From Paratrimastix pyriformis (taxonomy: Eukaryota; Preaxostyla; Paratrimastigidae), in the NCBI GenBank assembly GCA_027972325.1, contig JAPMOS010000004.1, forward strand, positions 1 to 64,000: 64,000 nucleotides of DNA, read 5' to 3'. Shown here piece by piece: positions 3,001-62,800 of this stretch. Positions within the stretch are counted from its first letter, which is position 1. Each line of letters begins with the position of its first letter. A model generated the notes under the pieces. It saw only the letters and a list, made by a program, of their open reading frames with translations, did not search any database and was not told the origin of the DNA. Made by a program: the position numbers and the translations under genes.

Positions 3001-5623
3001 GCAGCACAACAGCAGCAGCGCGGCAGGATGAGGGGCGAGGTCGAACGGCATGGGGGGGCAGGGGCGAAGGGGATGGGGGTGGATGGGGATGGGGATGGGG
3101 ATCTGGATGCCAGCAGACCGCGGCCTCGCGGATCCGGGATGCACCCGTCGGCGGGCAGGCCTGCGGAGAAGGCACATCAAGGGACGGAGAAGGCACATCA
3201 AGGGACGGAGAAGGCACATCAAGGGACGGAGAAGGCACATCAAGGGACGGAGAAGGCACATCAAGGGGCGGAGAAGGCACATCAAGGGGCGGAGATGAGC
3301 CAGGCGCGGATGGGGAGAGGGGGGGGGGGTTACGGAGAAGAGTCAATACATGAATTGCGACGGGCGTGGCGGCGTGGCGGCGTGGCGGCTCCCAGGCGGG
3401 CGGACCCTCGGGGTGGATGGAGGTGTCGACGAAGTGGTAGCCGCACCCGTCGGCGTCGTCGGTCACCCAGCGGTTGGCGTTCAGCACCCCCGTGGCGTTG
3501 GCCACCCCGGCGATGGGCACCCGCCAGACCCGGCCCCCGTCGGGCTCCTCCCGCTGCCCCGGCTGCTCCTGCCGGGGGGCCCCGCCGACGGTGCCGAAGA
3601 TGCCGAAGCAGGTCAGCACGCCCAGCCCGTACCGGCGCAGCTCCACCGAGCGGACGGTGGCCCCCTCGGGGACCGGGATGGCCGCGTCGTACAGGCAGAA
3701 CTGCCCCAGCGGGTCGGTGGCGCTGGCGTTGATGTAGGGCGCCCGCGAGGCCCGCACAAGGACCGAGACGGGCCCCTCGCAGGAGGCCGGCGAGAACCAG
3801 TCTGGAGGAAGGTGAGCCGAGCCATGGGGAGGCGGGTGAGGGGGCGGGGTGGGACGGGACGGGACGGGACAGGACGGGAGCGGGCGGGCAGGAGTCGCGG
3901 CCATGCGCCTTCGCCCCCACGGTGACGGTGAGGGGGAGATGGGGCGCGGACCGGGGATGGTCACGTTCTCCTCGTGGTCGCCCCGGTCGGTGCGTAGGGT
4001 GACCTGCAGCGGGATCCCCTCCACATTGCCGCCCTGGGCGGGAAGCCTGGAGATGAGGAAGGCGGACGAAAGCGAAGGAGAGGCGGAAGCAGGGCGGGGG
4101 GGGGGGGGGGGGGGGAGGTGTGACCGTTGTGGCGACGATATGGACGAGGCTGAGGCGGCCCGGTGCGGCGCTCAGATCAACCTCGACGGGGGGGCTGTTG
4201 TCCAGGTGGAAGGCGTTCGGCTGGCCGGGGCGGCCCCACGCGAAGCAGAACGTGCCTCGGCCGTTGGGGTCCGCCACCCGGCCGTCCACCGGCAGGCCTG
4301 GAACCACCGGCAAGCGCGTGCGAGTGCAGTCAGCCACCACCAGGGTCAGCCACCACCAGGGTCAGCCACCACCAGGGCCAGCCACCACCAGGGTCAGCCA
4401 CGGCAAAAGGCCCTCCTGGCAGGCACGGACCGGTGGGGGCGAGGCTCCGGTCCTGGAAGACGGCCATCTGGCGGTCCATGCCCTGGCTGTACGAGCGCCC
4501 CGCCCCCGCCACGACCCGCAGGTCCATCTGGGCCGCGAGGGGCGCCGCCCAGATCTCGCCCTCGATGCCGCACTGGGGCTCGGGCGAGCCCTCACGGCCC
4601 ACCCCGAAGAGGCCGAAGCAGGTGGTGCGGCCGGCGCCGCCCACCCGGCGGAGGGTCACGGCTGAGACCTGCGTGCCCGGCGCCAGGGGGATGCTGCACT
4701 GCCACAGGGTGAACAGCTCCTCGCCCACCTGCTGGTAGATCCCCGCGCGGGTGGCCCGGATCAGGGGCGTCACGGCCGGGTCGGGCGAGGAGCCGTACCA
4801 GTCTAGGGTGAGGAGGAGGAGGAGGAGGAGGAGGAGGAAGGGGGAGGGGGTGGAGCAACCATCAACGGGGATTCGAGGAACTACCACCTCCCTCCCTCCC
4901 TCCCTCCCTCCCTCCCCCCTCCCATCTCTCATATTCAGAAAACCGAGCCCGGGGCCCGTAAAAGGGAACACGAGAAAGACCTCTCTCTCTCTCTCTCTCT
5001 ATGATGACGGGAGACGGACCGGGGACGAGAAGATCGTGGAGAGTGGTGCGCCCCTCGGCGGTCAGCACCTCCACCTGGATGGGGTTGCCGCTGCCGTTCC
5101 CACCCTGCCCCGGTCAAGGGTTGAGCTGGCTGCGAAGCGGGCGGGCGCTCCCGGCAGACCGTTGTGGCGACCACGATCAACTCGGAGAGGACGGGTGGCC
5201 GGTTGAACTCGACAATGGTCCCAGCGAGAGGCACCTCGAACCCGTTGTCGCCGTCGCGGTTCTCCCATGGGAACTGGAACCGGCCTGGTCGAAGAATTCC
5301 AGGAAGATCGACAAGGGGGGGTTGAGATAAGCAGACCGCGAGAAGAGTCGACACACCCGTCGTTCGGGAGGCCCCGGGAGTGGAGGGATTGATCTCTATG
5401 AAAATCGCGGAAAGAAAATGGGAGTTGAGAGGGGCCAGTATCAACGCATCACAGACACAAAATAATAGCCGCAGCCGTCCAGATCCTGGCCGAACAAGAA
5501 AACATGTTCTCAAGTTGCTCCCGAATCTCATCCGAAACAAACCTGAGTCGGGTCCCTGCCTCGGCCGATGATACAGCGAAAATTCAAAGAGTTCTCAAAC
5601 GGGAGTCGAATAATCGACGACAT
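1..5623 (-). CDS. Modular repeat protein of unknown function (3' part outside window)
   Basis: I do not recognise this family. The gene runs off the left edge and has at least 15 exons here. The product is a chain of about four ~240-residue modules. Each has a segment like LPADGxIPDPxGRG, a segment like GTFxFPWGD ending HVVATTV, a short segment like GGNHSGxPL ending IPGP, and a segment opening DW and ending DADGCGYHFVDTSIHP. Exon boundaries recur at the same module positions. I chose ATG 5623 because its frame (MSSIIRLPFENS) joins across a 57-base intron (5486-5542) to a module end reading DLDGCGYYFV. No signal peptide follows this ATG, so an upstream exon could be missing. The modules look beta-rich with a few cysteines, perhaps extracellular or lectin-like, but that is inference. 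Confidence 0.6.
490..806. repeat. TG-rich and GGGCT-type microsatellites in an intron
   Basis: A TG dinucleotide run (about 490-556) is followed by about 27 copies of a five-base GGGCT unit (about 667-806), interrupted once near 711-720. It falls between coding segments of the modular repeat gene and is intronic. Confidence 0.85.
1009..2900 (-). repeat. Two near-identical tandem gene modules, exons and spacing included
   Basis: The stretch 1009-1231 closely matches 2327-2549 with only scattered base differences, and the exon near 1490-1590 matches the one near 2650-2745. A 45-base piece at 2174-2218 is also identical to one near 3422-3466. Exons are conserved while the introns between differ in repeat content. 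This indicates recent tandem duplication of a whole multi-exon module inside the gene. Confidence 0.8.
2796..2840. repeat. GGGCA five-base tandem repeat
   Basis: About nine copies of a GGGCA unit lie in an intron of the modular repeat gene, just upstream (gene sense) of a short GGNHSG-type exon. Confidence 0.85.
3168..3297. repeat. 21-base tandem minisatellite, about six copies
   Basis: The unit reads GAAGGCACATCAAGGGACGGA with minor variation. Its length is a multiple of three, so it stays open as a heptapeptide repeat on both strands, but it sits upstream of the TCCGCAG acceptor at about 3164 (gene sense) and is best read as intronic. Confidence 0.8.
4328..4400. repeat. 16-base tandem repeat (AGCCACCACCAGGGTC type)
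   Basis: Four to five direct copies occur in an intron of the modular repeat gene. Confidence 0.75.
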
Positions 5624-5810
5624 GTTACCAGAAAACAATGGACGGCGGGGTGCGTTCGGCTATGCGTGGGTCGAGCACCCGCCCAAACAAATTTCGTCCC
5701 CAAATTTTGTGTCACTGAAAATGAAACTTTGTCAAGGATGGACAAAACAACAATAAATAAATAAAAAAAAAAAGATTGCTTGTTTGTTATTCCGCCCCAC
5801 ATGGTGGCGA

Positions 5811-8372
5811 CTAGACTGTGGCCGCCGCCGCCACTGGGGTAATCGTAATTTGAACAGTCGTTCCGCGGCTTGCGGCAGTGTGGGTCACCTCAATGCGGTT
5901 CGTGGCGACCTTCGCCCATTGGGCCGCTCCGGGAGGGGTAATGGTGACGTCGAAACCGTGGGGATAGTACCTAGGGAAGAACGGCCAAATGATTCCAACG
6001 AAAGACTCTATGCGAGCGCTCCAGACCAGGCTTCATTGAGATAAATCTCGGTGGGCCCCTTGGCGGCCTGAGCATGTGGCGGGAGAAGAAAAACGCGGTT
6101 GGGGATGAGAAGACAAGGCCGGATGGCCATGCGGAACGCCCGAGGAGGAGGGCACAGACGGGGTTGGGGTTGTACTTGAGGTTATACAGGGCCGTCTCGG
6201 GGTCGAATGCCATGCTCACCGGCACCCCTGCGATGGCGGGCGCGAACGTGCGGGACAGCGCGCGCACCTACCCCCGGCGACGGGCAGCCGGACAATGAAG
6301 ACGAAACGTTGGGGCACGGGGGAATGGGATGCGCGCGCGCGCGGGGCGACACGAGCAGGCGCGGACCTTGGAGACCTCCAGGTTGCCGTTGGAGTCGTAG
6401 AAGCCCTCCAGCGCGTCCGCGGTGGTGAGGTCCTGCAGCGCAGAGGGCCGCCCGTCAAGGATCGGCAAATGCCATTCCCACTCCTCCCCACTCGTTACCT
6501 CATGCCCCCCCCCCCCCCCCCCCCCAGTGCGAATTGGTTGTGCCCCGCGATACGGACCTGGAAGTACTTGAACTGCCAGTAGTCCCAGTTTTCCATGTAC
6601 TTGTCGGCCTGGTTGCCCATGTAGTTCAGCTCGTGGATGGCGATCGAGTGGTCCGTGCTCGCCCCGAACTCAGTCAGGAAGCTCCCGCACCCTTGGTGGT
6701 CGGCGGTGGTGGTCGGCGGTGGTGGTCGGCGGTGGTGGTCGGCGGTGGTGGTCGGTGGGGGGCCAAGGGCGCGGGGCAGACCGAGCCGCTTGATGTCCTT
6801 CTTGCGGGTGGCCCAGCTTTCGCTGTCCTCGCCCTTGCAGACGGTCTTCGAGCGCGGGTCCGTCTGCGGGAAGCAAAGCAGGCAAACAGACGTTAGGCGT
6901 TGCGGGGGGGGGGGTGTCTGCGTGCCGCGAATCGAGTCAAGCGCGAAAGGGGCGTCAGGCAGCGAGGCGGACCCGGTTGGTGTCGAGGGAGCAGTAAATA
7001 TGGTAACTGGGCCCAAAGAAGGAGGAAAAGAAGAAGAAGGTGCCAGTGAAGATGGAGGTGAGTCAGCAGGGACCAACCAGGGAGGCCCTGGGGCACCCAG
7101 GGCGGACCTATACACTTGCCGGTCGTTGTACTCCTTGCCGCCGGGGCCCTCCTGAAAGCCGGACGTCCAGTAGTCCGTGACGGCGGGCTCGAAGAAGATC
7201 ATGTGGTCCGTGTCGATGCGCCGGATGGCCTCGTGCAGGCGCCGGTACATGGGGACCAGGTTGTGCTGTCGAGGCAGGGGGGGGGGGGGGGGGGGAGGGA
7301 GGGAGGGAGGGAGGGGGGAGCGGGCGCCAGTGAAGGGAGAGGATCCGAAGGGCTTCCCCCTCGCACCGCAGAAGGCAGTCGGGGCTCTTGTGGGTGGCCG
7401 CGGGGGGGACCTTGTCCGCGTATCCGCTGAGCCCGATCAGGAGGGGGTTGGTGTAGATGTCACCCGGCCAGGGTTCGTTGAGCAGCTCGTAGCCCATGAC
7501 GCCCTCGTGGCCCTTCAGGGCAGCCACCACCGAACTCCAGTACTGCGAGCAACCGCGCCATAGCACCGTGAAACCAGACCCGTTGGAGTGGCTGCCGGGC
7601 GACGGGGGGAGGCCGGGGTGAAGGAGCCGGCTGAAGAAGAAGGCCGACCTCGACGAATTTATCTTGGAGAATGCCCGTGTTGTTGTACAGGTGCTGGGAG
7701 GCCAGGCACGCTTGGTCGGACATATAGTATACAAAGAAGGGATGCTAGAGGAGGGCGAATGAGCGACACGGGGCACGGGCAAGAGCGAGGTCCGGACGCT
7801 GAGGCAATCCTTCAAATCGGGGTATTGAGTCACGGGATCAACCGTGAACTTGTGGGCAGATGGATGGGAGAAGGCCAATCCGTTGGTTGTGGAGATGGCC
7901 CAATCAGGCGCGCCCTCGCCGCACAGCTTGCGCGAGAGAATATCTTGGTGGCAGTCAACGAGTGTGCTAATGTTGTATGAGTGGAGAAGATCGATCATCC
8001 TTCCCATGGTATTGAGGTACTCGGTGTCGGTTGTTGTTGAAGTCGGCTGCACACCAGGCCACATCACACCAAGTCGAACATGATTGAAACCCCCTATCAA
8101 GGGGAAAAGAAGGATGAAAATATTGAGATTGCCGAAAAAAAATGCTGACAAGAAACGAGATTTTGCGCATCAATCTCCGAGAACGAGTTTTGCGCGTCAA
8201 ATCCCTCCAATTCCGGATGCCACGGAGGAATTTTGTAAACCGCGTTCAATCCGTGGAACAAGCGGGTCCTCCCGAACTCGTCGATAATATGTTGTGTGGT
8301 TGGATCGACATGAAATGGAGCGGCTCGGACCGCGACCACAAGCAACAAAAGAAACAGCCCCCGGCTTGGCAT
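5811..8372 (-). CDS. Family 5 glycoside hydrolase, endoglycoceramidase type
   Basis: The product is predicted to cleave the bond between oligosaccharide and ceramide in glycosphingolipids, in the secretory path or a digestive vacuole. ATG 8372 opens a clear signal peptide (MPSRGLFLLLLVVAVRAA). A TIM-barrel catalytic domain follows, with GFNHVRLGVMWPGVQP, DCHQD, the acid/base glutamate in NEPWPGD and the nucleophile glutamate in LTEFGAS. The C-terminal beta-sandwich follows, with SMAFDPETALYNLKYNPNP and NEAWYYPHGFDVTITP. The last intron is 5971-6026, rejoining W|YY, and the final exon is 5811-5970 with stop at 5811-5813. Introns hold G or C runs at about 6505-6526, 6904-6914 and 7267-7284. The assignment is firm at superfamily level; substrate is inferred from the family. 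Confidence 0.85.
6691..6756. repeat. 12-base GGTGGTCGGCGG tandem repeat in an intron
   Basis: About five direct copies lie between glycosidase exons, immediately 5' in gene sense to the exon carrying LTEFGAS. Confidence 0.75.
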
Positions 8373-8455
8373 AGTCTCTCCGGGCAGGGTTATTGCGATA
8401 ATCTAAACAGGTTTGTTTTTGGCTTGCTATCTCACTGTGGCTCATCGAACGATAG
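8373..8455. promoter_or_regulatory. 83-base gap between divergent start codons
   Basis: The glycosidase (-) and the Cgr1-type gene (+) start 83 bases apart, so both promoters and 5' untranslated regions must lie in this gap or overlap the neighbouring gene. The gap is less GC-rich than the gene interiors. I see no TATA box. Confidence 0.5.
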
Positions 8456-8883: not shown

Positions 8884-10364
8884 TTATTCTTGGGGTGGGA
8901 CGTCTCCTGTGGCTGTCGCGACTGGTTGCCCTGCCCCGGTCGTCGCTCGAGCGACCCGTTCCTGCCGAGACGTGATCGTTATCCGCCTTCCACGGGGAAC
9001 AGACCTCGAGTGGCCCGTATAATTCGCGGTTTTGTTCAACACGCGCGCGATGGATGCTCCCGGGCTCCATCCCTTTGATAGATTGTGCTTGGAGGGTCTG
9101 GATGGGGGGGGGGGGGGGGGGGGTTAGGAATGTCATCTGCGCGCAGACCTTGAAGGCCATCGGCACGAGCCAGTTGACCGCCCACTTGAGAAGCCACTGA
9201 GGAACCCACGGGACATAGGGGTTGAGAGAGATCATGACACGAAGACGGGATTTGTTCGCCGAGACAGGAAGAATCTGGAACCTACAAAGAGTTGCAGGAA
9301 GATTCCACTCGAAGGGACAGACACGCAGGTGTGCAGGAGAAGTCGTGTCACGCCTTTTCCGGGCGGAGCGATTGGAGTTCGCTGGAGAGCTTCCCTCAGC
9401 AAGGGAGGAAGCGAGACCCCAGAAGGCGCTGTCCCCACAGGAGTGGGAGAGGCGGCTGCCACTCTTCCGGAGTTGGCTGACTCCAAAAAGCGTCGAAGGA
9501 GAGTGTTCAGGGGACTGACTCCGGGGCTGGCCGCCGGAGAGCTCGATGATTGAGGAGAAGGCGACCGTGTTGGGGGGACCCCAGGGATTGGGACTTCACC
9601 AAGTGAGTTCTCGATATCGGATGGCGGTGATGCCGCTGCACATTCAGCAGGTGGCGGAGCACAATCTTGGGCGAGTTCCCCCTGGGAAAAGGCAGAAGAA
9701 GCGAGACTCACTTGATCGAGCCAAGAGGGGAATGCCAGCGATGTGGGAGGGGGCGGGGTGACATTTGGCTGCTGAATCGAGTTAATGATCGCTAAGAACC
9801 CTCCACCATGAGACAGGACGTCGTAACCGTTGACCCAACCTATCGGGGGGTGAATTCCACCAAAATCGAGGGACGGGGAGAACCGGACCAAGGAAATCTC
9901 GATCTTCGAATGGCCATGGCAGCGCTCCTCTGACCCTCGCAATTTGACGAGTGAACCCAACATTCTTTAAACGACATGACTCCTGCGAAGAGATAGGCAA
10001 GTGAGGCCCGAGAAAACTGGGAAACCTTGCAGTGTGGAAGCCATTGAGAATACAAATCGCTCTCGATAAATTGGGCTAAGATGGCAACTGCCGAGGCATC
10101 AATACTGCCATTGATGCAGATGCTGTGGACAAGGCCCCCATCATGACGATAATGAATGGTGTATGTGGGCTCACTCGCAAAAAGCGTCCAACCGTGCTTA
10201 TCTTCTAGGGCAACGAGTGATTCAGAGAGAGTTTGAGCGTCTCGAAGAATGGTTTGGTAGGCCGGAGAGGCGCGCAGTTGTTCGTTGGCCATGATCTTCT
10301 CAACGGCCTCGCCGACTCTCCCATACTCGAGGTCTCGCTGCAAATCCTGTTCGATTTGGGACAT
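8884..10364 (-). CDS. START-domain lipid-binding protein
   Basis: The product resembles START/Bet v1-fold proteins that carry lipids in a hydrophobic pocket. Exon 1 (from ATG 10364, MSQIEQDLQRDLEYGRV) holds an acidic helical N-terminus, then TLFASEPTYTIHYRHDGGLV and ESDLYSQWLPHC. A later exon gives LPWPFEDRDF, the conserved START WPF-DRD core, followed by the helix segment NPYVPWVPQWLLKW. The last exons read GMEPGSIHRARVEQNRELYG and EERVARATTGAG, with stop at 8884-8886. The middle part is Ser/Pro-rich and partly intronic, with a C run on the coding strand near 9103-9122. An alternative ATG at 10409 would overlap the RPB3 start codon; I prefer 10364. Ligand unknown. Confidence 0.65.
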
Positions 10365-11851: not shown

Positions 11852-14800
11852 ATGCCCCCGCGAACTGTTCAGGCACTTGCCAAAGTAAAACTCGATGAAC
11901 TTTTCAGCGTTTGGTTATGTCAGCAAGAGGCGCAGGATTGGATCCGTGCGACCCTCTCCGATTTCAAGAACGGCATTACCACCCCGCATTCCATTCCCAG
12001 CCCATCACATCTCCCTCTCTCCCCAACATCACCGCGCTATTCTCACCGCGCTACCGCGTCTCCAACATCCGATGGGCTGAGCCCGCACCTCACATTTTCG
12101 CTGGCTGCTCCTGCATCTGTACATTCCACCTCCGAGACTTCCCCCCTTCCCTCGCCCCACGATAAATCTCCCTCGTTTTCCCCTGTTTCCCCTGTTTCGT
12201 CTGTCTCTTCACCAAATTCTCCGACAACCCCACCATCACCCCTTGCCCTCCCTTCCAGCCTCTACGTCCCGCCACCCAACCCCATTCCATCTGTGGGTCC
12301 TTCAACGACAACTGTAACTCCCATACAAACTGCTCCCGTCACCCCGGCCGTTTCCGCCAATCCCGCTCCCACAACCACCTCGACCGCCCCCGTCACCCCA
12401 GCCGTTTCCACGGCACCCGAGAAACCCAAATCCCTTGTGAAACAAGAGAGTCCTGCGGTCGCAATACCTCCACCAACACCCATCTCAGCACAGGCACTCA
12501 CCAAGGTCTGGATCGGAGCATTCGGCCCGGATGCACCATTCTTACTCATCTTTGGGGCAGGCTCTTCCCATTCCCCAATTTTATTTCCCTGGTGGCAAAC
12601 CTGCTCCGCAGGAGAAGGTCGATGCCGAGAAGGTCTGCTGGTCTCCGTTGCCTTGGTTCTTGGTGCGCTCACAACGGAGGTGTTCTCTCCCATCCCGCCG
12701 CCGTCCATGCTGTTGCCTCTCTCTGGTGGGTCCCTGCTGCTCCCCGCAGGCCCAATTCGCGGAGATTTTCGCGCGGCACCCGGACGGGGTCTCTGTGGAG
12801 ATCTTCCAGGACGAGGTCATGCGCCCCGTCCTCGGCCTGCCCCGCTGGATGGCCCGGCCCTTCTGGGACCGCATGATGGCCGTCGCCGCGACCATCCCAG
12901 GCGAGACCCTGATCACCTTGAATGAATTCACTAAGTCTGCTCCCCCCCCCCCCCACCCCCCACCCCCACCCCCCCACCCAGGACCTTCCCTGCAGCGATG
13001 TCATTCCTGTTTCTTGATGGCCTTTTAGGTATTACGCGGCCAACCTGCAGAACTTCGACGCCCAGGCGCGCTTCTTCCGGATCTTGAAGGACCCGGCCCA
13101 CAACTACGTCACCCGGGACGACTGGGTCCCATACATCCGCGGTCCGCCGGGCCCCTCGCGCCGAAGGGCTCCGTCCTCCTCTGCCCGTCATTGCGGCACC
13201 CTCCCGGCGAGATATTGGCATCATCACCGATCCGACCGCCTTTGGGGATGTGGGGTTCCCGGGTTGTGGGGTGGGGCCAGCATGATGGACGTGCACCCGG
13301 GGCTCGATTTCCTCAAGTCGGCCCCGAGTTCCAGCAGCGCTACGGTCCGTCTCGACCCGCCCCTCGTCTTGGTCACCAGCGACATCTCGGGCATGTTCTA
13401 AACTCTGGTCTCCTCGGCGGGCTATTCCCCCCCGGCCGAGACGGTGGCGGCACGCATCTACTACGCGGTCAACCGGAAGGATGACGGCCGGATGACGCTG
13501 CCCGAGATCCGGCGGAGCAACCTCTTCGCGACCTGCCTGCGCTGCGACGACGAGCCCGACATCAACAAGGTCCCGCCATCCCGGCCCGCCTGCTGCCCCC
13601 TGCCTTCCCCGGCATCCCTCGGCATCACGGCCCACCCACCCACCCACCCACCTCATGTACCTCGCTGCTGCTGACGCCCCACGGCTCGGCTCAACTCTCG
13701 GGTGGTCTTTGCTCTCCCCGCAGATCCTGTTCTACTTCAGCTACGAGCACTTCTACGTGCTCTACTGCAAGTTCTGGGAGCTCGACTCGGACCACGACCA
13801 GTTCATCGGCAAGGCCGTCCGTCCCTTCGCCCATCTCCCGACCATCCCACGCCATCCGCACCTCTTCCCGGCTCCTCGCATCGCGACGGATGGTCACCCG
13901 CGCCGCCTCCCCCCGTCGGCTTGTGGCCGCGACCGTGGGCGCAGGATCTGGCCCGGTACGGCACGGGGGCGCTCTCGCAGAAGACCTTGGACCGGATCTT
14001 CACCCAGATCCCGCGCAAGTTCGCATCCACCCGGCCAGGCACCATGTGCTACGACGATTTCATCTGTCCGTCCGACCCCCTCCCCCCCCCCCCCCCCCCC
14101 CCCCCCCCCGCCGCCGCCGCCGCCGCCGCCACAACACCGCCGACCCCCGCGCACTCCTCACCTTGCCGCCCACAATCACCCCTTCTCTACCCCCCCCCCC
14201 CCCCCCGGCCAGGGTTTCTGCTGTCGGAGGAGGACAAGACCACCGACACCAGCCTAACCTACTGGTTTCGGCTGTGCGACCTCGACGGTGGTCTGCTGCC
14301 CCGTCTTCGCCATCCCCGCCGCCACACACCATGCCGCGAGTGAGCGACTGCCCCTCACCATCACGATTTTCTTGCCGGTGTCTGTGTGTCTGTGTGTGTG
14401 TGTGTGTGTGGGGGGAAGATGGGGTCATCTCGGCCTACGAGATGGAGTACTTCTACGAGGAGCAGGAGAAGCGCCTCGCCCAGCAGGACAGCGAGCTGGT
14501 CAAGTTCTCGGATATCCTCACCCAAATGTCCGCCCCGGCCCCGTTCCTCATCCTTCGGCTCTCCCTCGTGTCCTGCTTCCTCCGTTGGCCTGCCTGGGTG
14601 GCGCTGACGCTGATCCGCATGGCTGGGGGCATCTTTGGGGTGGGCGGGTGTTGGCACAGGACGGACATGATCCACCCCGTGCAGGGCGGCAGGATCACCC
14701 TGGCCGACTTGAAGCGCTGCAAGCTTGGTCCGCTGTCCCGCCCCACCATCTTCTCGATGCGTCCCCTCCTCTCCCTCCCCCCTCCCTCTCCCCCTCCCTC

Positions 14801-15366: not shown

Positions 15367-15563
15367 AGGCCCTGGGCCCCCGGCCCCGCCCATACCCCCC
15401 CCGGTGTGAATTCGATCGATGCCGGCACAGTGGCCTCGGAGTGCTTTGTTTGTGTTTTCCTTCGGCAATTCGCAGGCCGGTCGTGTTCTGCTCTGCTGGC
15501 CGGGGGGTGGAGGGGGGGGGGGGGGGGGTCAGGTTGGGGGTTTCGACAGGAAGGCGCGGCGAA

Positions 15564-16085: not shown

Positions 16086-17480
16086 GGCGTTTGGACCTGG
16101 GGGGGTGAGAGACTCCTTTTTCTCGGCAATGGGTACATATTAGGGGACATATTATGACCGGATTATGTAATAAAACGAGGGGAAAAAAAAAAAAAACAAA
16201 AAAAAGCAACGATAACGATGGAAAAAGAGAAGTGCAGCAACAAAACAAATGAAAGAAACGAACCAGGGGAGCAAAAACAAACGGGACCCGAAAAAAAAAA
16301 AGAAAGAAAAAAAAGAAAAGAGGCGGCCCGCCCGTGGGCGGCAGCAGGAGGGATCCGGCCCCCGGTGAGGCGGGCCTCACCCTGGTGCCTGGTGGCCAGC
16401 GGGCGACCGAACTCAAAGTACGTATGCATCAACATGGGGGTACGGGTGAGCCGGGAACGGGGCGGATGGGCACGAGGCGCAGAGAATGCAATGTACCGGA
16501 TCCGATGAAGCGGGGGATGGGGCGGCCGGGGAACGGGAATGGGATTGCCGCAGGGCGCCATCCCCGAGTCCGAACAGAGGGGGACATGGAACATCAAAAA
16601 TGAACACCGGCCACTTCCGAGTCAGAGGACCACACCAGAGTAAGGACGCCAGTCACGCGGCACACGGAGAGCCAGAGCAGAGCCGCCGCGAAAAGGGACA
16701 CCGGACGACGGCAAGCAGGCGCGGAGGGCGGGTCACAAAAACAGGAAGGCACGACACAGACCCGAAAAGCACCATACCAGACCACAGACCATCCCAGACC
16801 ATCCCAGACCATCTCAGACCATCTCAGACCATCTCAGACCATCCCAGACCATCCCATACCACAGACCAGAAACTTAACAGAAACAGACCAGAGGACAGAC
16901 CAGGCCATCCCAGACCACAGACCACAGGGCACGAAAACGAAAGGTGGGGTTGAACCAACAGCAGCAGCAGCAGCAGCAGCAGCGGGATGAGGATGTCGCA
17001 GAGGGGACACCCGGGGCAACACGCAAGATAAGATCAGACGACAGGGGGCGGATCCGTCAATGCGGATCGGGGGGGGGGGGGGGGGGTAGAAGATCAAACA
17101 AAGCTGGGCGCTCCGCCAACAAACAATAATCAAAAACGGGGGGGGGGGGGGGCGAAGGACAGGAACCATCAGATGAAACCGAGGCGAAGAACAACGGAAC
17201 GAACAACAAGAGGCGAAGCAGAGGGCAGCGCGTAACAATAAACCGCCGCCAGCCGCAGAACCACCAGCATCGCCACGCCCATCCGCCGCCCAAGCGCGAG
17301 GGGCGGGAGCGGGAGCGGGAGCGAGGCCAGAGGAAAAGGAAAGTGCGCCACCCCCCCAGATGGGGCGGGGGGGGCTTGGCGGCGAGCGACAGGGGCGGGG
17401 CACAGGGCCACACCAACAACGCACACGGGGCAGAGAAGTCACCATGAACACCTTGTCAAACGCCACTCCCGTCGGACGGA
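16086..17480. other. 1.4-kb stretch without a recognisable gene
   Basis: It lies upstream of dUTPase and downstream of the cyclin stop, both on the minus strand. It holds an A-rich segment with short A runs (16180-16320), a CCAGACCATC tandem repeat (16781-16862), a CAG run (16959-16982), G runs near 17070-17086 and 17140-17152, and GAGCGG repeats near 17300-17320. Short open frames show no family motif and no consistent splice pattern. It may be cyclin 3' untranslated sequence plus the dUTPase promoter. Confidence 0.55.
16781..16862. repeat. 10-base CCAGACCATC tandem repeat
   Basis: Seven to eight direct copies with C/T variation at one position, outside any gene I can recognise. Confidence 0.8.
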
Positions 17481-27799: not shown

Positions 27800-27837
<38 letters not shown>

Positions 27838-34952: not shown

Positions 34953-35023
<71 letters not shown>

Positions 35024-36059: not shown

Positions 36060-36515
36060 GGGCCGCTCCCACCGGGATCCCACCCTTCCATCCCCTCCGT
36101 CCCCCATCCCCTCCACCACCTGTTTTTATAAGGCCGCCGCTTGGCATTTCTTCCTCCCGTGCTGGGTGTACATTCGATGCGAACAGCAGCCGTCCCGACC
36201 CAACCCCCGGCCCCCCCCCCCCGTCCCTTCCCAGCCAGGGCCCCCCGAAGTGCCGCCCGCATATGTTTGGGTGGTGGGCGCCCAAAGGGGCACACGGCAC
36301 AAACGCCTTAATACATGGAGACCGGCTACGGCCAGAGAGCCCCACGCCCCCGGGGCACAAGCGTGCTGTCCGGCCGCGGGTGGGTGCCAGTGGGCGGGCT
36401 GGTCGGCAGCCAGAGGCACACCCCATTCCACCCCCCGCCCGCCCCCCTCCCATCGCGCGGGGAGCCACCGGCTCGCCTGGCCACGGGTTGTCGGCGGGGC
36501 ACACCGGTCGGCCCT
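36060..36515. other. 456-base interval between convergent genes
   Basis: Lies between the stops of the dynein chain (+) and the HMG gene (-), so it should hold both 3' untranslated regions. A C run at 36210-36222 is present. No coding signal or clear polyadenylation signal seen. Confidence 0.5.
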
Positions 36516-41090: not shown

Positions 41091-41131
<41 letters not shown>

Positions 41132-47549: not shown

Positions 47550-50500
47550 ATGAGATCTCCAGACGAGGCCGGGGAATCTTCTATGTATCTTCAGGTTCCT
47601 GCAGCTCGGACTCCAAAAAAGTCATGTGGCTGCGGTGGCTGCACCCGTAAAATCTTCTGGACCGAGTTCATGCATCTGGTCCCTGTTCTGCTTCTCATCG
47701 GGGCGGGCATCTACTTTTCAACTTGGATTCCTCGGGTGGAGAAGAATCAGGGGGTGCATTGCGTCTGGGGAGCGGTCGAACTCCCTCATGACCAAGTGCA
47801 ACCTCATTTTTTCTGCGAGGAGGATGTTCCCATTTTGATTTATGCCACCACCGCCTCCAGAGATCTGTGGGTGCACCAATCCGGACACCGGCCCTTCGTG
47901 GAGTGGGCGACTTGGAGCGCAAAGGGCCCCGACCGGATCACCCCCTACCCCCACCACTTTGCCACCCTTCCCCACGGCCGAGTGGCCCTTCTGGCCTACA
48001 TCGCCCCGGTGCTTGAGCTTTATATCTTGACCAATTCCTCTGCCGAATGGACCTTGGCGAGCCGGTCGATCAACATCACCGCCGCCCCGTGGGACATGAT
48101 CTACGTGCCCGCCCTGGGGTCCCTCGTCTTCGCATGTCCGTCGATCCTGACCTCCTCCCTCCTCCGACACCCCTTGTCCATGCTCCTGCTCCCCTCTGCA
48201 CCCCCCATGACACCCCCCCCCCCCCCCCCCCCCCCCTCGTGAGCAGCCCAGACCGGGGTTTTCGTCCAGCAAGAGGCGGCCCCGTACTGGCGGCTGGCCT
48301 TCCCGTCGCCCTTCCCCCAGTGGGCCGACTACGAGGGCTTCCTCCTCAACCAGCATCCTGTGGCCCTGGTCCGCCCCCGCCCCCGCGCCGCCCCACTCCT
48401 TCTGTTCCGATTCATCATCCTCCGTTCGCCTGTTCCTCGGCCGGTTGGGCATCGCCCCCGGGGCGCCTTGACCCTGGCCGCCCAGATGGTCAACGGGACG
48501 CACACCCTGGCCGTGCTCAACGGCTACCTGGGGCTGCAGCGCTCGGTGGACCTGGCCGCCCCGGACCCGCAGTGGGACACCCGCGACTGGGGGCTCAAGG
48601 TGCTCGACCTCCACTGCGCCCCCCAGGGCGGCCCCTGCGCCCCGGGGGTCGTCTGCGACCCCACGGTCTGCCGTGTGGCCACCTCCCCCCGGTGCACGGA
48701 CCTTCACCGCCACCAACACGGCCCGCCACGCACCACCCCCAGAAAGCAGGCTTGGAGGGGTGCCGGGCCTCGGCGGCGGGCAAGGCGCAGCTGCAGCCGC
48801 GCCAGGCGGTCTGCAACGGGACGGTCTACCTGTGGGGCCGCATGGCGACCGTCCGATCGGACGTCTACTTTGTCATCAAGGCCCCGCCCATCATCATGGC
48901 CCAGCACCGGCCCAACGGGACGGTCCGCCCCCTCCCCTCCCTGGGTGGCAGCGGCGATGAGGGTCACCTCAGATCCCCGACGACACTCACGCCATCCATA
49001 CTTTGATTCCTCCTCCCACCCACTCCACCCCCGCCAGTTCTCCGACTGCCAGGTGCCCTTCCAGGACAACCTGACCCTGCAGATTGTGGGGTACGTCTTC
49101 CTGGGGATCTCGATGGTCCCCATCGGGCTGCCCCTGGCCACGGGCATCGGCGCCAAGATCAGCCAGCGCCGCCGCGCCAAGAAGGAGGCCGCCAGCCGGG
49201 CGGCCGGCACGCCGCCCCCGGGGATCTCGCCGGCGCCGCCTGCATCCCCCCGCGCCGCCTCGTCCTCCCTGGCGGCGGCGGCGGACGGGGGGACGTCGCC
49301 CTGGGCCCCGCCCAAGGAGGACCCCCGCGCCCCGCCCACCTTCTCGCTCTTCCTGTACTTCCTGCAGTACCTGCTCTACTTCAGCGGCTACGGGATCGAC
49401 ATTTTCTGGGGGCTCTACCGGACCCTGCTCGACAAGCCGGGCTCGTCGGCCCTCTCGTGGGCCATCCGGATGCCCATGTACCTCTTCGGGGGCCCCGACG
49501 ACTGGCACACGGGGTTCATCGCCATCACGGCCATCGACACGGTCCTGGCCACGGCGGTGCTGGCCTGGCTGCCCCTGCTGGCCATCTCGGGGCACGCCTT
49601 CCGGTGGGCCCTCGAGCGGCTCCCGCCCGCCCCTGGCGGCGGCCCGCCCCCGCCGGTGGCCGACCAGCCCCAGCCCCAGCCTCAGCCTCAGACCCGGCGC
49701 CTCTGGCGGCCCACCGAGGCCGACGTCCGGGTGGTGCGCCGTTTCGGGCGGCGGGGCCGGTGCGGCCAGCTGGTGCTGATCGTGGTCCCGTCGCTGACCA
49801 TCTGCGTCGGCTTCGGGGTGGGCCAGGTGGTCCTCTGGTGCATGCAGCAGCTGCGGCCCTACATGCCGCCCTTCTGGCTGTCCCTCTTCAAGTCGGCCCT
49901 GATGCTGTGCGTCTCGACCGCCTCCAAGACCCTCTCGGGGTGGCTCATGGGCCTCTTCCTCGAGAAGGGCTCGCTGCTCCACACCCGCTTCATCCAGCTG
50001 GTCCGGAGGAGCGCCACCTGCCCCTGCAATCGCATCGTGCTGCCGTGCATGCCTCCCGCTTGCACGCCCGAGGCCCCGGGGTTTCCCTCGCCTCCTGGGG
50101 GCCTCGTGCGGTCATTCGGGCGCCAATCAGTCCTGCCCATCACTCCGTCCCCCCCCCCCCCCCCCCCCCCCGCCTCTCTCTCTCGCCAGGCGTACGCGAC
50201 GACCCTCTCGCAGACCCTGAACGCCCTGCAGGTGCCCAAGGGGCACCCGACCATCGAGGCGGAGATTGTGGCCTTCTTCCAGGACACCCTCCTGCAGTTC
50301 GCCACGACGGTGGGCCTGATGGAGGCCCTCAACTGGGTCGGCGAGCTGGCCCTGGTCGTCCGCGACCGGTGGACGTGGGTGCAGCCCCCAAGGCCCAGGC
50401 CCAGCCCCAAGCCAACCGGAAAGCCGCCCGTGGGGGGCCCAGGCGTGGTGGGGTTGCTGCCGCCGGGGGCGGTGGATTTCACCCGGTGGGCGATCCGCAT

Positions 50501-51768
50501 GGGGCTGAACGCCCTCGCCCGGAGCGACCCCACCCCCAACGCGGACTGGAAGGTCCCCCGGCTGCCTCCTCCCCTCTTCCCCTTCCTCTCCCCCCTGGCC
50601 ACAACGAGAGATTGACTGTCTGCTATCCCCCCCCCCCCCCCCCCCGTGCCCGTGCCCCGTGCCCCTCCCGCCAGCCGTTGATCTTCCTGTTCTCGGTGCT
50701 GCCCTTCTACCTGTTCAACGCGCCCGCCATGGGGATGATGCTCCCGGTGATCGCCATTGTGGTGGTGCTGTCCTTCCGGGCCCGGGGAGCCCTCTTCGCC
50801 CGGGCCCGGGCCCCGCCCGAGCCCCAGCACGCCAACGCGGCCATCTTCCAGGGAGTCATCTTCACCTCGGTGCTGCCCGTGGTCTACATCATCTGCATCC
50901 TGCAGGCCGCCTCCAATTTCTACAACTTCTGGCAGGTCTACGACCCCAGCTACACCACCGACTACGTCGCGTCCGTCAGGCCACACACCCCGCCCCACCT
51001 ACCACCACCCCACAAGTTCTCCCTTCTTCATCCTTCCTTCGTCGCCATCCTTTGCCCACGCCCACGCCCATGGCGCGCGCAGGCAGATCACGCAGTACTA
51101 CCAGATGGCCTGCGTGATGATCACCAGTCTGTACTTCTTCCTGCTCCTGGACCGGGTCGTGTGCCGCATGATCCACCGCAGCATCGGCAAGGGCCAGAAC
51201 TACCTCCAGTACTGCCTGCGCCGTCCGCACGCCCCCCCTGCCCCCCCGCCCGTCTGCCCCCCTGCCCGTCTGCCCCCCTGCCTGCCCCCCCTGCCTGCCC
51301 CCCCTGCCTGCCCCCCCTGCCTGCCCCCTGCCCCCCTGCCCCCCTGCCCCCCTGCCCCCCCCTGCCCCCTGCCCCCTGCCCCCCTGCCCCCCTGCCCCCC
51401 CCCGCCCCCCGCCCCCCCCTGCCCCCTGCCCCCTGCCCCCTGCCCCCGCCCCCCCCCCTGTCTGCCCCTGTCTGCCCCCTGCCTCTGCCTGCCTTCCCGC
51501 CGCCCTCCTCACTGGTGGGCCGTCCTTTGCTTTTGCTTTGCTTTTGCTTTTGCGTGTTGTTGCAGCCAACCTGTACGGGCGGGTGGTGCCCCGCAACCAG
51601 ACGGCCCTCCCCGCCCGAGCCCGAGCCCGACACGCCCAACCCGCTCCGGTGGGCCCCAACCCGGCGGTCGCCTCCCACCCACCCTCTCCATCACCTCACC
51701 TCAGCTCGCCCCTCAGCTCGCCCATGGAGATGACCGCCATCGCCCGGGTGGCCCCGCCCTCCCTCTGA
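47550..51768 (+). CDS. Large polytopic membrane protein of unknown function
   Basis: I do not recognise this family. ATG 47550 (MRSPDEAGESSMYLQVP). A cysteine motif KKSCGCGGCTRK precedes the first membrane segment (FMHLVPVLLLIGAGIYFSTW). A ~300-residue luminal or extracellular region follows with N-glycosylation sequons (NSS, NIT, NGT) and several cysteines. At least eight further hydrophobic segments come next, for example LTLQIVGYVFLGISMVPIGL, FLYFLQYLLYFSGYGIDIFW, GFIAITAIDTVLATAVLAWL, LVLIVVPSLTICVGFGVGQV, PLIFLFSVLPFYLFNAPAMG, VIFTSVLPVVYIICILQAAS and MACVMITSLYFFLLLD. Stop 51766-51768. Cytosolic loops are Arg/Pro-rich. It could be a channel, transporter or receptor; nothing in it decides. 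Confidence 0.7.
51231..51475. repeat. CCCCCTGCC-type imperfect tandem array in an intron
   Basis: A ~245-base C/T/G stretch with hardly any A lies in an intron near the 3' end of the membrane protein gene, between the QYCLRR exon and ANLYGRVVP. Confidence 0.75.
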
Positions 51769-51998
51769 TCGCCCCCCGTTTTCTCTGCAATGTTGTTTTC
51801 TCTCCGGCTTGTGTTGTATCTGGGCCCGAGATCGTCTGTTTTCATGGCTTGTTCTTGTCCAACGCTGCTGCCTGTGCCGCATCGCCTCTTGGGAGCGGGG
51901 GGGGGGGGGGGGGGGGGGGCGAGGAAGGAAGCCAGACGTCCGCCGGGGCGAAGGCCCGGGGTCATCGGACGACCAGCTCGGCGGGGATCTGGAGGGGC

Positions 51999-56362: not shown

Positions 56363-59300
56363 ATGACAATCGACCATGATTTACCCATTGACGAGCCAGC
56401 AATTTCGAAGCACCGAAGACGGGCTCGCATCATCGTCAACTCGCTGCTCTGGAAAGTGACAATGTTTCTCGTCACGCTGTGCAACTTCATTATTATTATA
56501 CTATTCGATCCGACCTCTTCGAATTACACGGGGTATAACAGTGCCCTCGATCGTGTCGAGGTCTGTCCCCTTGGGTGTCCCCAAGCCGTCCCGGTGCGTC
56601 TTTCCCTGTAGGAAGTCTTGTCCATCCTCTTTGTCGTCGATTTTATTCTTGAGCGCGTCGCTGGAGCCCCATTCAATCGGATTGCTTGGCGCATCTTTTC
56701 ATTGATCCTGGCCCTCACCGGCATCCTCAGCTTGTTGCTCAGCTGGGCCGTTTTGATGCCCTACTGGGCCAGCGGCACCACACCCGCCTTGCCGACTGGG
56801 GTCACGGCGACCCTAGCTGTGCTTCGGGTCATTCGGAGCTTCCGGCTGCTCCTGATCTTCGACTACATCACCGGGCCGCGGACCCTCCTCGGGAACTACA
56901 TGTTCGCGGACGGTCTGTCGCCGCCCCCTCCACTCCCACTCCACTGTGCCCCCATTGCCCGCCCGTCCGCCCCAGCACATCCCACCGTCACCACATCCCA
57001 TCGACCTCCTCACCACCAACCAACCCCCCCCCCCCCCCCCCCCATGACCATGCAGCCAATTCGGTCACCCTGGTGGCGGTGGTGCTGACCCTCTGCCTGG
57101 CGGTGGTCTTCTCGTTCGCCATCATGGGCGTGACGGTCTTTCGCGACCCCTTGCACCAGCGCTGCATGGCCCCCGTGGTGGCCCCCAACGCCACCTCCAC
57201 CCAGCTCTGGCTGGACGGGGTGCCCCTGGCCGGGCTCACCGACCCCGGGGCCAAGCGGCTCTGCTCGTCCCCCGTGCTCCGCCTGAGCTCGGCCGGCACC
57301 CTGACCCTGTACAACCCGGCCGCCGGCAATTCGACCTCCCCTGCCAACACGTCTGCGCCTTCTTCGGCGGTCGCCGGGCTGGGGCGGTGGTGGTCATCGG
57401 ACGGCATCGCCGCCGCGGAGGAGGACGCCGACTACGGGCCCAACGACGACAACCCCTGGGGCGACATCGACCAGCGCCCGGTCGGCGGCGCGGGGTTCTG
57501 GAGCTACTTCGTGGCCGCCGCCGCCAACCAGACGGCCGCCGCCTCGGCGGGCCACGCATGCGACCCGGTCCGGGGTGCCTGGCGCCCTGCATCATCCGCT
57601 CTGCGCACGCGCCCCCTCCACCCCTCTCCGCCCCTCCGCTCGCGTCGGCTTCTCTCAGGGCACTTCTCTTTGCGCCGTCGCAGGGCTCCTACTGCACGGA
57701 CGTGCCCGTGGGGCCCAACCTGGGGTCGACCAGCTTCGACAACGTCCTGCAGGGCTTCGTGACGGTCTTCCAGGCCATGTCCCTCGAGGGCTGGACCCAA
57801 GTCATGTACTACGTCCGGCCCCGCCATCCCGCCCCCCGCCCCGACCGCACGCACACCCCAGCCGCCAGCGCGCACGCACACACACGCTGTCCCATGCGGT
57901 CACGCGCTCACCCTCGGCACACTCTCACCACCGCGCAGACGATGGATGCCGGCTCCGCGTGGGCGGCCGTCTACTGGCTCGGCGTGGTCCGCCCCTCCCC
58001 GCCATGAGGAGACCACCACAGACTGTCGTCGCCGTGTCCTCCTACATGTCCCAGCCCGCGGCCGCGCTGACCCCTCATCCTTCCGTCCCCTCCCCCTTGC
58101 TGGGCCCAGGTCTTCCTGTGCAACTTCTTCTGCCTGGGCCTCTTCAACACCCTCATGAGCGACCGGGTCTCGTCCGCGGTCGGTCCCAGCCTCCTCCTCA
58201 CCCCCACCCCCACCCCCACCCCCACCCCCACCCCCACCCCACCGCCTCATCCTCCCGGTTGTCGCCCATTGTGGTGGCCTTTCTGTGCCTCCGGTTGGCG
58301 TCCTTCTGCTCGCCGGTTCCGTGGCGCGTGCCCCCCCTTGTGCTTGTGCTTGTACTTGTACTTGTACTTGTACTTGTACTTGTACTTGTACTTGTACTTG
58401 TACTTGTACTTGTACTTGTACTTGTACTTGTACTTGTACTTGTACTTGTACTTGTACTTGTGTGGCATGGTCTCCCTGGTGGGGGGGCGGCAGGCCAAGC
58501 GGAAGCAGGCCCAGGAGGAGCGCGAGGAGGCCGCCCGGTTGGCCGAGAAGAAGCGCCGCGAGGCCGAAGCCGAGCGGGCCAAGCGCGTGGTGGCCCTGTG
58601 CCCCGTCCGGCGCGGCCCCGGCCCCTCGTCGGCCCCCGAGCCCCAGCTACCGCCCAAGGCGGCCGACCCGCCGCTGGGCTCGCGGGCCCTGTCCCCGTTC
58701 ACCCGCCGCCGCGATGTCCGCCTCCATTCCCATCCCCCCCGCCCCCCGCCACGCCCGGCGTGACCACCCATGCCCTGCTCTGGCCTCACCCGTCCTCCTG
58801 CCACCCCGGGGGGTATGGCGGTTGTGGTGGTGGGCGGATGCAGCGGTTCGTCATGTGGTGGCTGGCCCACAGCCAGTGGAGCGCCCTGGACGAGCTCGAG
58901 GAGCTGCGCACGGGGGTGGCGCCCCACCGGCAGCTGGTGGTGCAGGATCCGCTCATCCTGGCCGCCTTCTGGGCCGCCTGCGGCCGGGCTGCCCGGGGCT
59001 GCCTGGCCTGCACGGGCGCCTGCCTGGCCTGCACGGGGCGCGGCTGCTGGGTGAGCACCTGCTTCCTGGCCCGAGCCTGCGGGCGCTGCTGTCGCGGGTG
59101 CTGCCGGCGGGGCGGGGCCAAGCCAAGGCCCACCACGGGGGACGAGCCGCCGCCCCGCCAGAAGCCCCCCCCACCAGAGGCTGAAGGCAAGAGGGGCGCG
59201 CCCCCGGCCTCCACCACCACCTCCTCGCTCCAGCCAGCAAGCGCCACTGCCGCTCCGACCACGCCCCGCCCCGCCAGCCCGGCCAACCTGCTGCCCGTCA

Positions 59301-59847: not shown

Positions 59848-59878
<31 letters not shown>

Positions 59879-62800
59879 CCCTGCCGCCCCGACCCCGACC
59901 GGGACACACGTCCAGACAACGCCGCCTGCTGCACCCCATGATCGGGTGGCCTCACGCCTGGACCCCCCCCCCCCCCCCCCCCCCCCCCATCGTCCCTCGC
60001 CCCTTGCCGTCCACCACCCTCCCACCCCTACCCCACCCCACCCCGCCGCCTGCAGGACATGCCACCCAAGGTGGAGGCCGACTTGGACCGGCTCAACGTG
60101 GCCTTCACGGTCTTCTTCACGGTTGAGCTGGCCGTCCGGCTGCTGGGCATGGGCTGGGTGCCCTTCCTGGGGCGGGGCCCCGCCAGCTGGCTCGACCTGC
60201 TGGTGGTCCTCCTCAGCTGGATCGAGGTCCGGCCCGCCCCGCTCCCCCATGACCCATATTGCACCGACAGCCGTACCTGATTCTGCAACCGCGACACGTG
60301 CTGGCCCACCGCACCCGGAGCTGGGGGCGGGGGAGAGGGCGATGGCGGGGGTGAGGGCGACGAGGAGGGACGTGGGCCGCTGCAAACTGGTGGCTGGGCC
60401 GGGGGGAAGATCCTGGCGGGCTCCTTCCCCGACCTGCATTGCACCGACAAACTGGGTGGGTGGGTGGGTGGGCGTGGGGGACAGCTGCTGGTGGGGGCGA
60501 GCACCCGGGCCAAGTCGCTCCCGCTGGGCGGCATCAACACCCTGCAGACGCTGCGCCTGCTGCGGATCCTGATGCTCGGCCGCCAGTTCAAGGCCCGTCC
60601 CTCCACCACCACCACCGCCGCCGCCGCTACCACCACCACCCCCACCCACCCACCCACCCCCACTCGCACCGCGATCCGGTGGAGCCACCCACTTCGCATC
60701 AACAGGCTCCCACCTCACCGCCCATTCGCCACCACTGATGACGCCACCACCAGAGGCTGACGAGCCCCTTCGAGGCGCTGGGGCGGGCCTGGCGGACGCT
60801 GGCCAACTTCCTGCTGCTGCTGGTGGTCTTCCTGCTGGTCTTCGCGTCCATCGGGATGCACGCATTCGGCGGCCTGCCCTTCGGCAGCCAGGTCGGCCGC
60901 GGCCTTCCTCACCCCGTGGTGGGGGATGGAGGGTGGGCGGGCGGGCGGCTTCTCCTCACCCTGGGCTGCTGGCTCGTGGTGGTTGTGTGTTGGGGGGGGC
61001 TGGGTAGGTCACCCCGTCCGTGCCCGCGGACCCGACCCTGCCCGCCGATGTGGGGCCCCTGGACGCGTCGGCGGCCACTTCGGATGCCAACTTCAGCACC
61101 CTGACCTGGGCCTTCTTCACCGTCTACCAGTTCTTCACCGTCCGTCGCTGCTCTGCCCTGGCCTTCTCCGACCCGCCCCCGCCCTCCCTCGCCTTCGATC
61201 CGGCGCGCCATCTGACACTTTCCCTACCTCCGTCGCCCCTCGCGGTCGGCCTTTATCTCCTCTCAGGGCGAAAACTGGAATGGTCTGTGCCGCCGCTGTC
61301 CCCTCGCCACCTCGTCCTCACGGCTCTCGCCACTTCCTTTGCCGTCCGTCCGCCCGACCAGGCCTCCTGTGGATCACGGTCCGCGGCCGCCCCTCGCGCC
61401 CACGCCCCCTAGCCCCCTAGCCCCCCCCCCCCCCCCCCCCCCCCCCCAGGCCATCACGCGCCCCCAACAACCCCTTCGCTTTTGTGGGCTGGGTAGATTC
61501 GGCTGCGGGGCTGGTTCGTGGGGGCCGCCTACTGCTGCCTGACCCTCTTCTTCGGCAACTACCTCGGTCCGCCCCCGGGGCCCTCACACAGTGCGAGGCA
61601 CCTTGCCCCCCCATCCGCGCCTGCCCCCCACCTCACGCATCACGCATCCCCCCCGTGGTGCGCCCGTGGGGTGTTCGTTCGTTCGTGTGGGTGGCATGGC
61701 CGCAGGGATGGCCATGTTCATCGGCGTCCTGGTGGAGACCTTCAACAACCCGCCCCCCACGAGCGACCCCCGCTACAAGCGGGCCCTGCTGCGGGTCGAC
61801 GAGCACTGCCAGGATGTCCAAGCCCTGGTGCTGCGCTGCCTGGGGGCCCGGCCGGGCCTCGAGCAGCGCGAGGAGCGCTGGGAGGACGGCACCGAGCCGG
61901 AGGACTTTGCCCGGCTGGGGGCCCGCTTCGAGGAGCGCGCCAAGGTGACCGCCGACCGGGAGGCCCTGCTGGCCGAGTGCCAGCTGGCCCTGCGGCTCCT
62001 CCGCATGCAGCGGCGAAACCTGCAGGAGCTCGGCCTCGACTACCTGCCCGCCCCGCTGCCCGCAGGCCCGGGAGAGGACGCCGACCAGGAGGCCAGCGGC
62101 GGCGGCGGCTCCGAGGATGACGAGGACGAGGAGGAAGAAGAGGGGGATGAAGATGAGGACGAGGAGGAGGACGAGGACGAAGAAGAAGAAGAAGAAGAAG
62201 AAGAAGAGCCTCCGGCCGGGGCGGGCCGGGGCCTGGGGGCGGTGCCGATCGAAGTTGCCGAGGCGACCGACGGGGCCCAGCCGCCACCACACCGGGGGGG
62301 CGCCCTCGAGGACGCCGCCCGGCCCGAGCGGCCCATGTCGGAGATCCCCGAGGAGCCCGCCTCGACGCCGCCCCCCCCGGGGCCGGGTGACGTTGCCACC
62401 GCCACCGCCGCCGGCCGGCCGCCCCTGCCCCCGGGGGCCCGTGGTCGGCTGGCCGGTCAGCCGCGGGCCGGGGCGGAAGTGGCCTGGGGCCGGTCCTCGA
62501 TCAGCGGGGACGCCGAGGAGGTGCTGGCCGTGCCCGAGCTGCCCCTCGAGGAGCCCGACGAGGACCCCGCCCAGCTGCCGGCCCGCCCCCCGCAGCCCGA
62601 CGATGCCCACGGTCCGTCGGCCACCCCCCCCCCCCCCCCCCCCGATGGCCGCCACGCGCATCAGCCCCCCACGCCTTCCCCCGTTCTCGCCCGGCTCTCT
62701 GCTCAGACAGCTCTCTGCGGGGGCCCTGCGGGGGGCACGGATGCGTGTGGGCAGCCTTCCAGACGCTGCGCCAGTTCGTGCTGGGGCTGCCCGAGCAGCT

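Follow-up and report, generated by a model that had tools for sequence, protein, structure and literature searches.

Sense-strand C runs in introns and a shifted 5' splice site matched by U1 genes in Paratrimastix pyriformis

The window analyzed here is a 64-kb stretch of the Paratrimastix pyriformis genome (GCA_027972325.1, contig JAPMOS010000004.1, positions 1 to 64,000) that carries predicted genes on both strands, among them the gene of a published protein (P0241), a PP2A B''-like gene and an ion-channel-like gene, and that is rich in long homopolymers of C or G. Here, we describe the orientation of these runs relative to introns, together with an unusual 5' splice site (donor) and a matching change in the genes for the U1 small nuclear RNA (snRNA). 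Every C or G stretch of at least 8 bases in the window was tabulated, and those of at least 10 bases were analyzed. There were 35 of these (19 C and 16 G on the plus strand): 26 lay in introns as sense C and one as sense G, two in predicted exons as sense C, and six outside predicted genes (five G and one C on the plus strand; Table 1). Within the window this agrees with the original prediction, made from the letters alone, that long C runs are nearly confined to the coding strand of introns, as 26 of the 27 intronic runs were sense C and the run at 6505-6525 was the single intronic exception, as proposed. The 18 runs and the exception that had been placed were all real and lay within 0-10 bases of their given positions, but the list was incomplete, with 16 of the 35 runs missing. 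Parts of the genome paper describe an assembly of 633 scaffolds and 56.6 Mb built from Nanopore and Illumina reads (PMC10703272). The assembly analyzed here has 495 contigs, and run lengths taken from sequence of this kind may be inexact.

Genes were oriented by Pfam matches in the same genome, which served as anchors at 80 loci (L009-L088); Pfam families that yielded positions only entered no count. A small hidden Markov model was trained on these anchors and refined on all loci and the window. Runs of at least 6 bases were masked, the non-coding model was strand-symmetric and no polypyrimidine model was included, so that the runs themselves should not set the predicted strand. Only GT-AG introns were allowed. 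The gene finder called 70 of the 80 anchors as coding, with the correct strand in all 70, and did not call the other 10; the anchors were also its first training set. The resulting set comprised 438 complete predicted introns (98.7 kb, window included).

The strand bias extends beyond the window and does not depend on the gene finder. Around Pfam-anchored exons, with eight loci retrieved by a C15 pattern excluded, 50 of 65 runs were sense C and 15 sense G (p 1.6e-5). Genome-wide, 96 plus-strand places had C12 within 4-34 nt after the donor heptamer AGGTCTG, compared with 31 that had G12 there (p 6e-9), and reversed-pattern controls gave 3 (C12) and 16 (G12). Raw counts for the two strands and their controls were 96 forward and 524 reverse with controls of 61 and 3 for C12, and 31 forward and 212 reverse with controls of 80 and 16 for G12; only the strand on which each place is counted once was used, for the controls as well, because the other strand tallies each offset of a run. 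The bias was more extreme in the window than in the sampled genome, since introns elsewhere held 45 sense C and 13 sense G runs, or 31 and 7 when introns cut by locus ends were dropped. The further proposal that gene orientation could be read from homopolymers alone thus holds as a tendency of about 3-4:1 for runs of at least 10 bases outside the window, and better for runs of at least 20 (18:0 in complete introns and 25:4 around anchors). The small sample outside predicted genes was unbiased (5 C and 6 G runs), which fits the original prediction, and runs were somewhat less frequent there, although not absent (11 in 26.1 kb, against 65 in 98.7 kb of complete introns). Given the bias in the window and around anchors and donors, and its absence from the small intergenic sample, the preference of C runs for the sense strand is real and tied to genes. 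Beyond the window, exceptions were concentrated chiefly in one predicted gene (L015, C453:106544-109948), which has three sense-G runs in two introns.

The runs sit within introns that are polar in composition as a whole. With runs removed, the sense strand of the 438 introns was 34.7% C, 25.7% G, 23.3% T and 16.3% A, compared with 27.3% C and 27.9% G outside predicted genes. In these pooled introns the preference for sense C grew with run length, the C:G ratio rising from 2.0 for runs of 3-5 bases to 2.6 (6-9) and 7.1 (10 or more), and reaching 31:1 for runs of at least 20. T runs of at least 6 bases likewise outnumbered A runs (79 vs 15). Per 98.7 kb, an order-2 Markov model of the introns predicted 0.3 C runs of 15-19 bases and 0.0 of at least 20, against 17 and 31 observed. 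No large family that would point to an introner-like origin of the C runs was found when the 438 introns were compared all-against-all with runs masked. This comparison gave 14 similar pairs, of which two were between kinase loci, eight within introns 185-192 (one inspected, on C395), three among long introns and one other. Three long predicted introns from unrelated loci (on C377, on C24 and at 20902-21616 of the window) share 64-80 nt at 92-97% identity, perhaps a dispersed repeat.

The donor learned by the trained gene finder was AG/GTC(C/T)G(C/T), where the first slash marks the exon-intron boundary, and not GTRAGT; +3 was C in 389 of the 438 predicted introns. With a donor model that had no preference beyond GT, 345 introns still showed C at +3 in 74%, G at +5 in 66% and G at -1 in 60%, while the base following GT elsewhere within introns was C in 31%. 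Published proteins led to the same donor: all 18 introns implied by two of them start with GTC, 17 from P0241 and one from P0001, the latter with donor GTCTGC as read by eye. P0241 aligned to the window without mismatch, and the runs of at least 10 bases inside its introns were all C, five in number; the aligner favored GT-AG ends and did not favor any third intron base. Introns delimited, by eye, from conserved protein motifs had the donors GTCTGT, GTTTGT, GTCCGT and similar, and in a CDC48-like AAA gene (L082:1584-1764), also judged by eye, a seeming 6-nt exon lies between two GTCTGT introns. In ten uncorrected tests for compensation between donor positions, C at +4 went with less G at +5 (p 0.02) and less G at -1 (p 0.05), and the eight others gave p above 0.09.

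The 5' end of U1 is very highly conserved, and in the canonical system AUACUUACC pairs with CAG/GURAGU. From the donors, G was expected at U1 position 6 before any U1 letters were read, and was found there. A search with the RF00003 covariance model returned eight matches (L089-L096), each spanning the entire 166-position model (E 3.7e-13 to 2.0e-10), on eight contigs (C212, C231, C441, C388, C24, C349, C482, and C495). All eight U1 genes found begin AUACAGACC rather than AUACUUACC. As gene letters, ATACAGACCTTG stands at the start in 8/8 and ACTTACCT occurs in 0/8 of the stretches read, and for this reason we describe the genes as U1 with an altered recognition sequence and not as canonical U1. 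Compared with the Rfam consensus AUACUUACCUG, positions 5-6 are AG in place of UU, and the 5' end ACUUACC was in none of the eight copies found. A canonical U1 may have escaped the search, although it should have outscored these eight. The calculated duplex energy was lower with the organism's own U1 end than with the canonical end in 413 of the 438 predicted donors (mean -7.3 vs -3.4 kcal/mol), and the own end made more Watson-Crick pairs in 313, fewer in 20 and the same number in 105. The genes are like canonical U1 in matching the full length of the model and in a 5' end complementary to their own predicted donors, and differ from it at positions 5-6. Of four U6 copies, the two that were read both carry the usual ACAGAG box, and the U1 start AUACAGA is identical to AUACAGA in U6, so that both snRNAs can pair with UCUGU.

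At the DNA level, a shifted 5' splice site, AG/GUC(C/U)G(C/U), in the introns of this genome is accompanied by a matching change from AUACUUACC to AUACAGACC in all eight U1 genes found. U1 would keep its usual pairing register on these donors, with G6 opposite +3 C and A5 opposite +4 U, and the altered U1 would read UCUGU, with which the ACAGA box of the unchanged U6 can pair as well. It is highly probable that the 5' splice-site code was rewritten on both sides in this way, with U1 positions 5-6 going from UU to AG in all copies found, donors genome-wide taking C at +3 and a pyrimidine at +4, and U1 and U6 both recognizing UCUGU. The change could have been stepwise, from a +3 A/+4 U donor such as that of the oxymonad Streblomastix and ending with the capture of U1 by the best donor for U6 pairing. 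For the runs, we suggest that introns are generally polar in their pyrimidines, with C exceeding G and T exceeding A, and that the runs form the tail of this polarity, which would seed homopolymers prone to slippage in a single orientation. Runs of G are probably selected against in pre-mRNA as well. About one third of the runs lie near 3' splice sites, and a minority of the C runs may double as polypyrimidine tracts, with some selection on top. We give this explanation as a whole, C-run polarity together with the shifted donor and U1 change, a probability of roughly 0.68. The C-rich, pyrimidine-polar introns with their sense C runs may be part of the same change of code. We regard the U1 change as the more important result and the C-run polarity as the lesser one.

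Other processes could orient the runs. Direct selection for a poly-C polypyrimidine tract would place them before acceptors, where the original prediction had put many of them. In the window this was true of a minority, as 10 of the 26 intronic sense-C runs lay within 20 nt of a predicted acceptor. In the full intron set 16 of 57 C runs ended within 12 nt of a predicted acceptor (4.9 expected under random placement), and the last 40 nt of introns held 21 C runs and no G runs, in line with some splicing-related selection. However, the remainder of the introns held 36 C and 8 G runs and was still biased, so that acceptor tracts are not the whole story, and mean C was not raised toward acceptors; tract selection is unlikely to explain the entire bias. 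A transcription-linked process of mutation or repair, by slippage or an asymmetry of deamination on the exposed strand, would instead leave C runs on the non-template strand wherever DNA is transcribed. Exons too have more C than G on the sense strand (0.364 vs 0.311), compared with 0.273 and 0.279 outside predicted genes. The fourfold codon sites of anchor exons showed no excess of C over G (1977 C, 2064 G). This speaks against C being favored across transcribed DNA as a whole, although codon selection could mask such a skew. This process would also not readily account for the last 40 nt of introns, which are denser in C runs and free of G runs, and we consider it improbable as the full explanation.

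The bias might alternatively arise by loss, with G runs purged from pre-mRNA for the damage that G-quadruplexes or R-loops do to transcription or splicing and C runs left as the remainder. At 8 in 98.7 kb, the sense-G runs of introns are indeed below the intergenic rate per strand, as calculated from 11 runs on both strands of 26.1 kb. Sense-C runs (57 in the same introns) exceed that rate, which makes it appear that C was gained and not merely G lost, although the intergenic sample is limited in size and could contain untranslated introns. We consider purging alone rather unlikely but not negligible. An assembly or gene-finder artefact, whether in the runs or in the donors and U1 genes, seems very unlikely. 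The Nanopore-based assembly (PMC10703272) may misstate run lengths, and the introns are predictions with imperfect ends. An error of length is not expected to orient runs relative to genes, though, and the bias is present without the gene finder, in the anchor count and the AGGTCTG search. GTC donors recur in published proteins and with the preference-free donor model, and the U1 copies lie on eight separate contigs.

Several results count against our explanation of pyrimidine polarity combined with a rewritten donor and U1. The fraction of C was flat toward acceptors, at 0.39-0.40 in all bins across 6-65 nt upstream. When only introns outside the window were taken, C:G did not rise significantly between runs of 6-9 bases and runs of 10 or more (122:53 to 31:7, p 0.17; pooled p 0.01), so the case for extra selection on long runs draws in part on the same window that first suggested the pattern. 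Of the eight sense-G runs in the 438 introns, three came from one locus. At donor positions +4 and +6, C is at least as frequent as U although U1 has A opposite; C there may be a tolerated mismatch, or the A may be modified. The U1 matches scored 50.8-60.2 bits, below the Rfam gathering score of 69.5. The gene models are rough: 15 of 17 donors were shared with the introns implied by P0241, and both ends in only 9 of 17. The run at 33759 was counted among the ten acceptor-proximal runs, and the published gene model sets its acceptor 34 nt away. In the PP2A B''-like gene, listed homologues cross the junctions at 12633 (23/24), 13570 and 13817 (120/120 each), and 14291 (119/119) without a gap, but those at 12935 (34/118), 13173 (0/119), 13345 (12/120), 14761 (0/120) and 15085 (12/120) have poor or no homologue support.

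In a survey of yeasts (PMC10581693), U1 candidates came from 227 of 230 Saccharomycotina genomes and 9 of 10 outgroups, and ACUUACC did not vary in any of these 236 fungal genomes. The same survey suggests that A at U1 position 5 might compensate for U at +4, and states that in Saccharomyces cerevisiae the central A of ACAGA is the partner of +4 U. Donors of the related oxymonad Streblomastix are described, in the part of the report consulted, as having conserved A, U, and G at +3 to +5 (PMC1501061). P. pyriformis shares a pyrimidine at +4 with these yeast-type donors, but differs in its C at +3 and in a U1 that followed the donor, whereas the yeasts in those passages keep ACUUACC. The tunicate Fritillaria borealis is similar in its genome-wide departure from the standard donor, and has two U1 versions with identical 5' ends for which RNA modification is invoked (PMC13326754, in part). 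In contrast, the U1 sequence itself is altered in P. pyriformis, and its predicted introns are GT-AG, the only kind that the gene finder allows. The C runs resemble the polypyrimidine tracts of 3' splice sites, expected within about 40 nt upstream of the acceptor, in being sense-strand pyrimidine tracts of which some adjoin acceptors, and differ in that most lie elsewhere in the intron and are pure C. A word search of the main text of the genome paper (PMC10703272) gave 'snRNA' 0 times and 'splic' once, with no splice-site statement among the passages returned. Among the matches listed for the open-licence PubMed Central literature, supplements excluded, there was no report of the U1 change, a GTCYGY donor or the C runs. 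The published annotation itself must have used such donors.

The 5' end of U1 should be locked by every donor that depends on it, and a genome where donors and U1 have both changed provides a natural experiment on whether that lock can be picked. P. pyriformis could therefore allow the roles of U1 and U6 in donor choice to be separated. The polarity of C runs helps to call gene strand in this genome and can serve to examine how the orientation of repeats is shaped by splicing or transcription.

Table 1. Runs of at least 10 C or G in the window, named by sense strand where a predicted gene gives one, with two gene features; the last column marks the 16 runs missing from the original prediction.
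Feature	Position	Strand	Context	Original prediction
C14 sense	1854..1867	-	intron 1848-2157, 6 nt to acceptor	missing
C11 sense	3319..3329	-	intron 2995-3405	missing
C20 sense	4096..4115	-	predicted exon 4068-4297 of minus gene 73-7723; gene model may be wrong	
G21 sense	6505..6525	-	intron 6433-6557; sole intronic exception	
C11 sense	6904..6914	-	intron 6864-6972	missing
C19 sense	7277..7295	-	intron 7266-7410, 11 nt to acceptor	
G20 on plus	9104..9123		outside predicted genes, upstream of minus gene 73-7723	
C13 sense	12942..12954	+	predicted intron 12935-13028, PP2A B''-like gene; junction gap-free in only 34/118 homologues	missing
C28 sense	14082..14109	+	intron 14066-14212, PP2A B''-like gene; junction gap-free in 120/120 listed homologues	
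C17 sense	14190..14206	+	intron 14066-14212, PP2A B''-like gene, 6 nt to acceptor	missing
G17 on plus	15512..15528		outside predicted genes	missing
G18 on plus	17069..17086		outside predicted genes	missing
G15 on plus	17138..17152		outside predicted genes	missing
C13 sense	24494..24506	-	intron 24476-24632	missing
C19 sense	25468..25486	-	intron 25400-25668	
Gene of P0241	30068..36056	+	1030 aa, WD40 among precomputed domains; 17 implied introns	
C21 sense	32051..32071	+	intron also implied by P0241	
C22 sense	33759..33780	+	intron also implied by P0241	
C26 sense	34207..34232	+	intron also implied by P0241	
C20 sense	34731..34750	+	intron also implied by P0241	
C18 sense	34754..34771	+	P0241-implied intron shared with run 34731..34750	missing
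C12 on plus	36211..36222		outside predicted genes, directly downstream of plus gene 30405-36059	missing
METTL16-like methyltransferase exon (Methyltransf_10)	38818..39354	-	only family match returned by genome search	
C37 sense	41091..41127	-	intron 41021-41159; longest in window	
C15 sense	46572..46586	-	intron 46563-46649, 9 nt to acceptor	
C18 sense	46619..46636	-	intron 46563-46649	missing
C16 sense	46907..46922	-	intron 46898-46987, 9 nt to acceptor	
C24 sense	48213..48236	+	intron 48136-48246, 10 nt to acceptor	
C23 sense	50149..50171	+	intron 50001-50189	
C19 sense	50627..50645	+	intron 50553-50674	missing
C10 sense	51449..51458	+	end of predicted exon 51083-51459	missing
G23 on plus	51897..51919		between convergent predicted genes	missing
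C20 sense	57024..57043	+	intron 56913-57055, ion-channel-like gene, 12 nt to acceptor	
C29 sense	59848..59876	+	intron 59817-60055	
C26 sense	59963..59988	+	intron 59817-60055	missing
C27 sense	61421..61447	+	intron 61245-61496	
C20 sense	62624..62643	+	intron 62612-62754	

Pfam searches of ten mechanical open reading frames returned EF-hand_13, two Ion_trans pieces (one below the cut-off) and one weak EED match, and those of ten predicted exons returned PP2C, Methyltransf_10 and a weak DNA_pol_phi match. The best solved-structure match of the METTL16-like exon was a U6 adenine-43 methyltransferase, with psilocybin synthases matching less well. METTL16 is described as the U6 methyltransferase in passages of the yeast survey (PMC10581693), and the idea that the +4 pyrimidine arose through loss of METTL16 is unsupported, as this METTL16-like exon is present in the window. 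The gene model merges it with the PP2C-like exon (41160-43118) into one gene, probably wrongly. P0241 is labeled THO complex subunit 2, yet its precomputed domains include a WD40 repeat (PF00400), and the label may be wrong. The predicted exon 51083-51459 contains a C-rich repeat that would code for a Pro/Leu/Cys-rich stretch.

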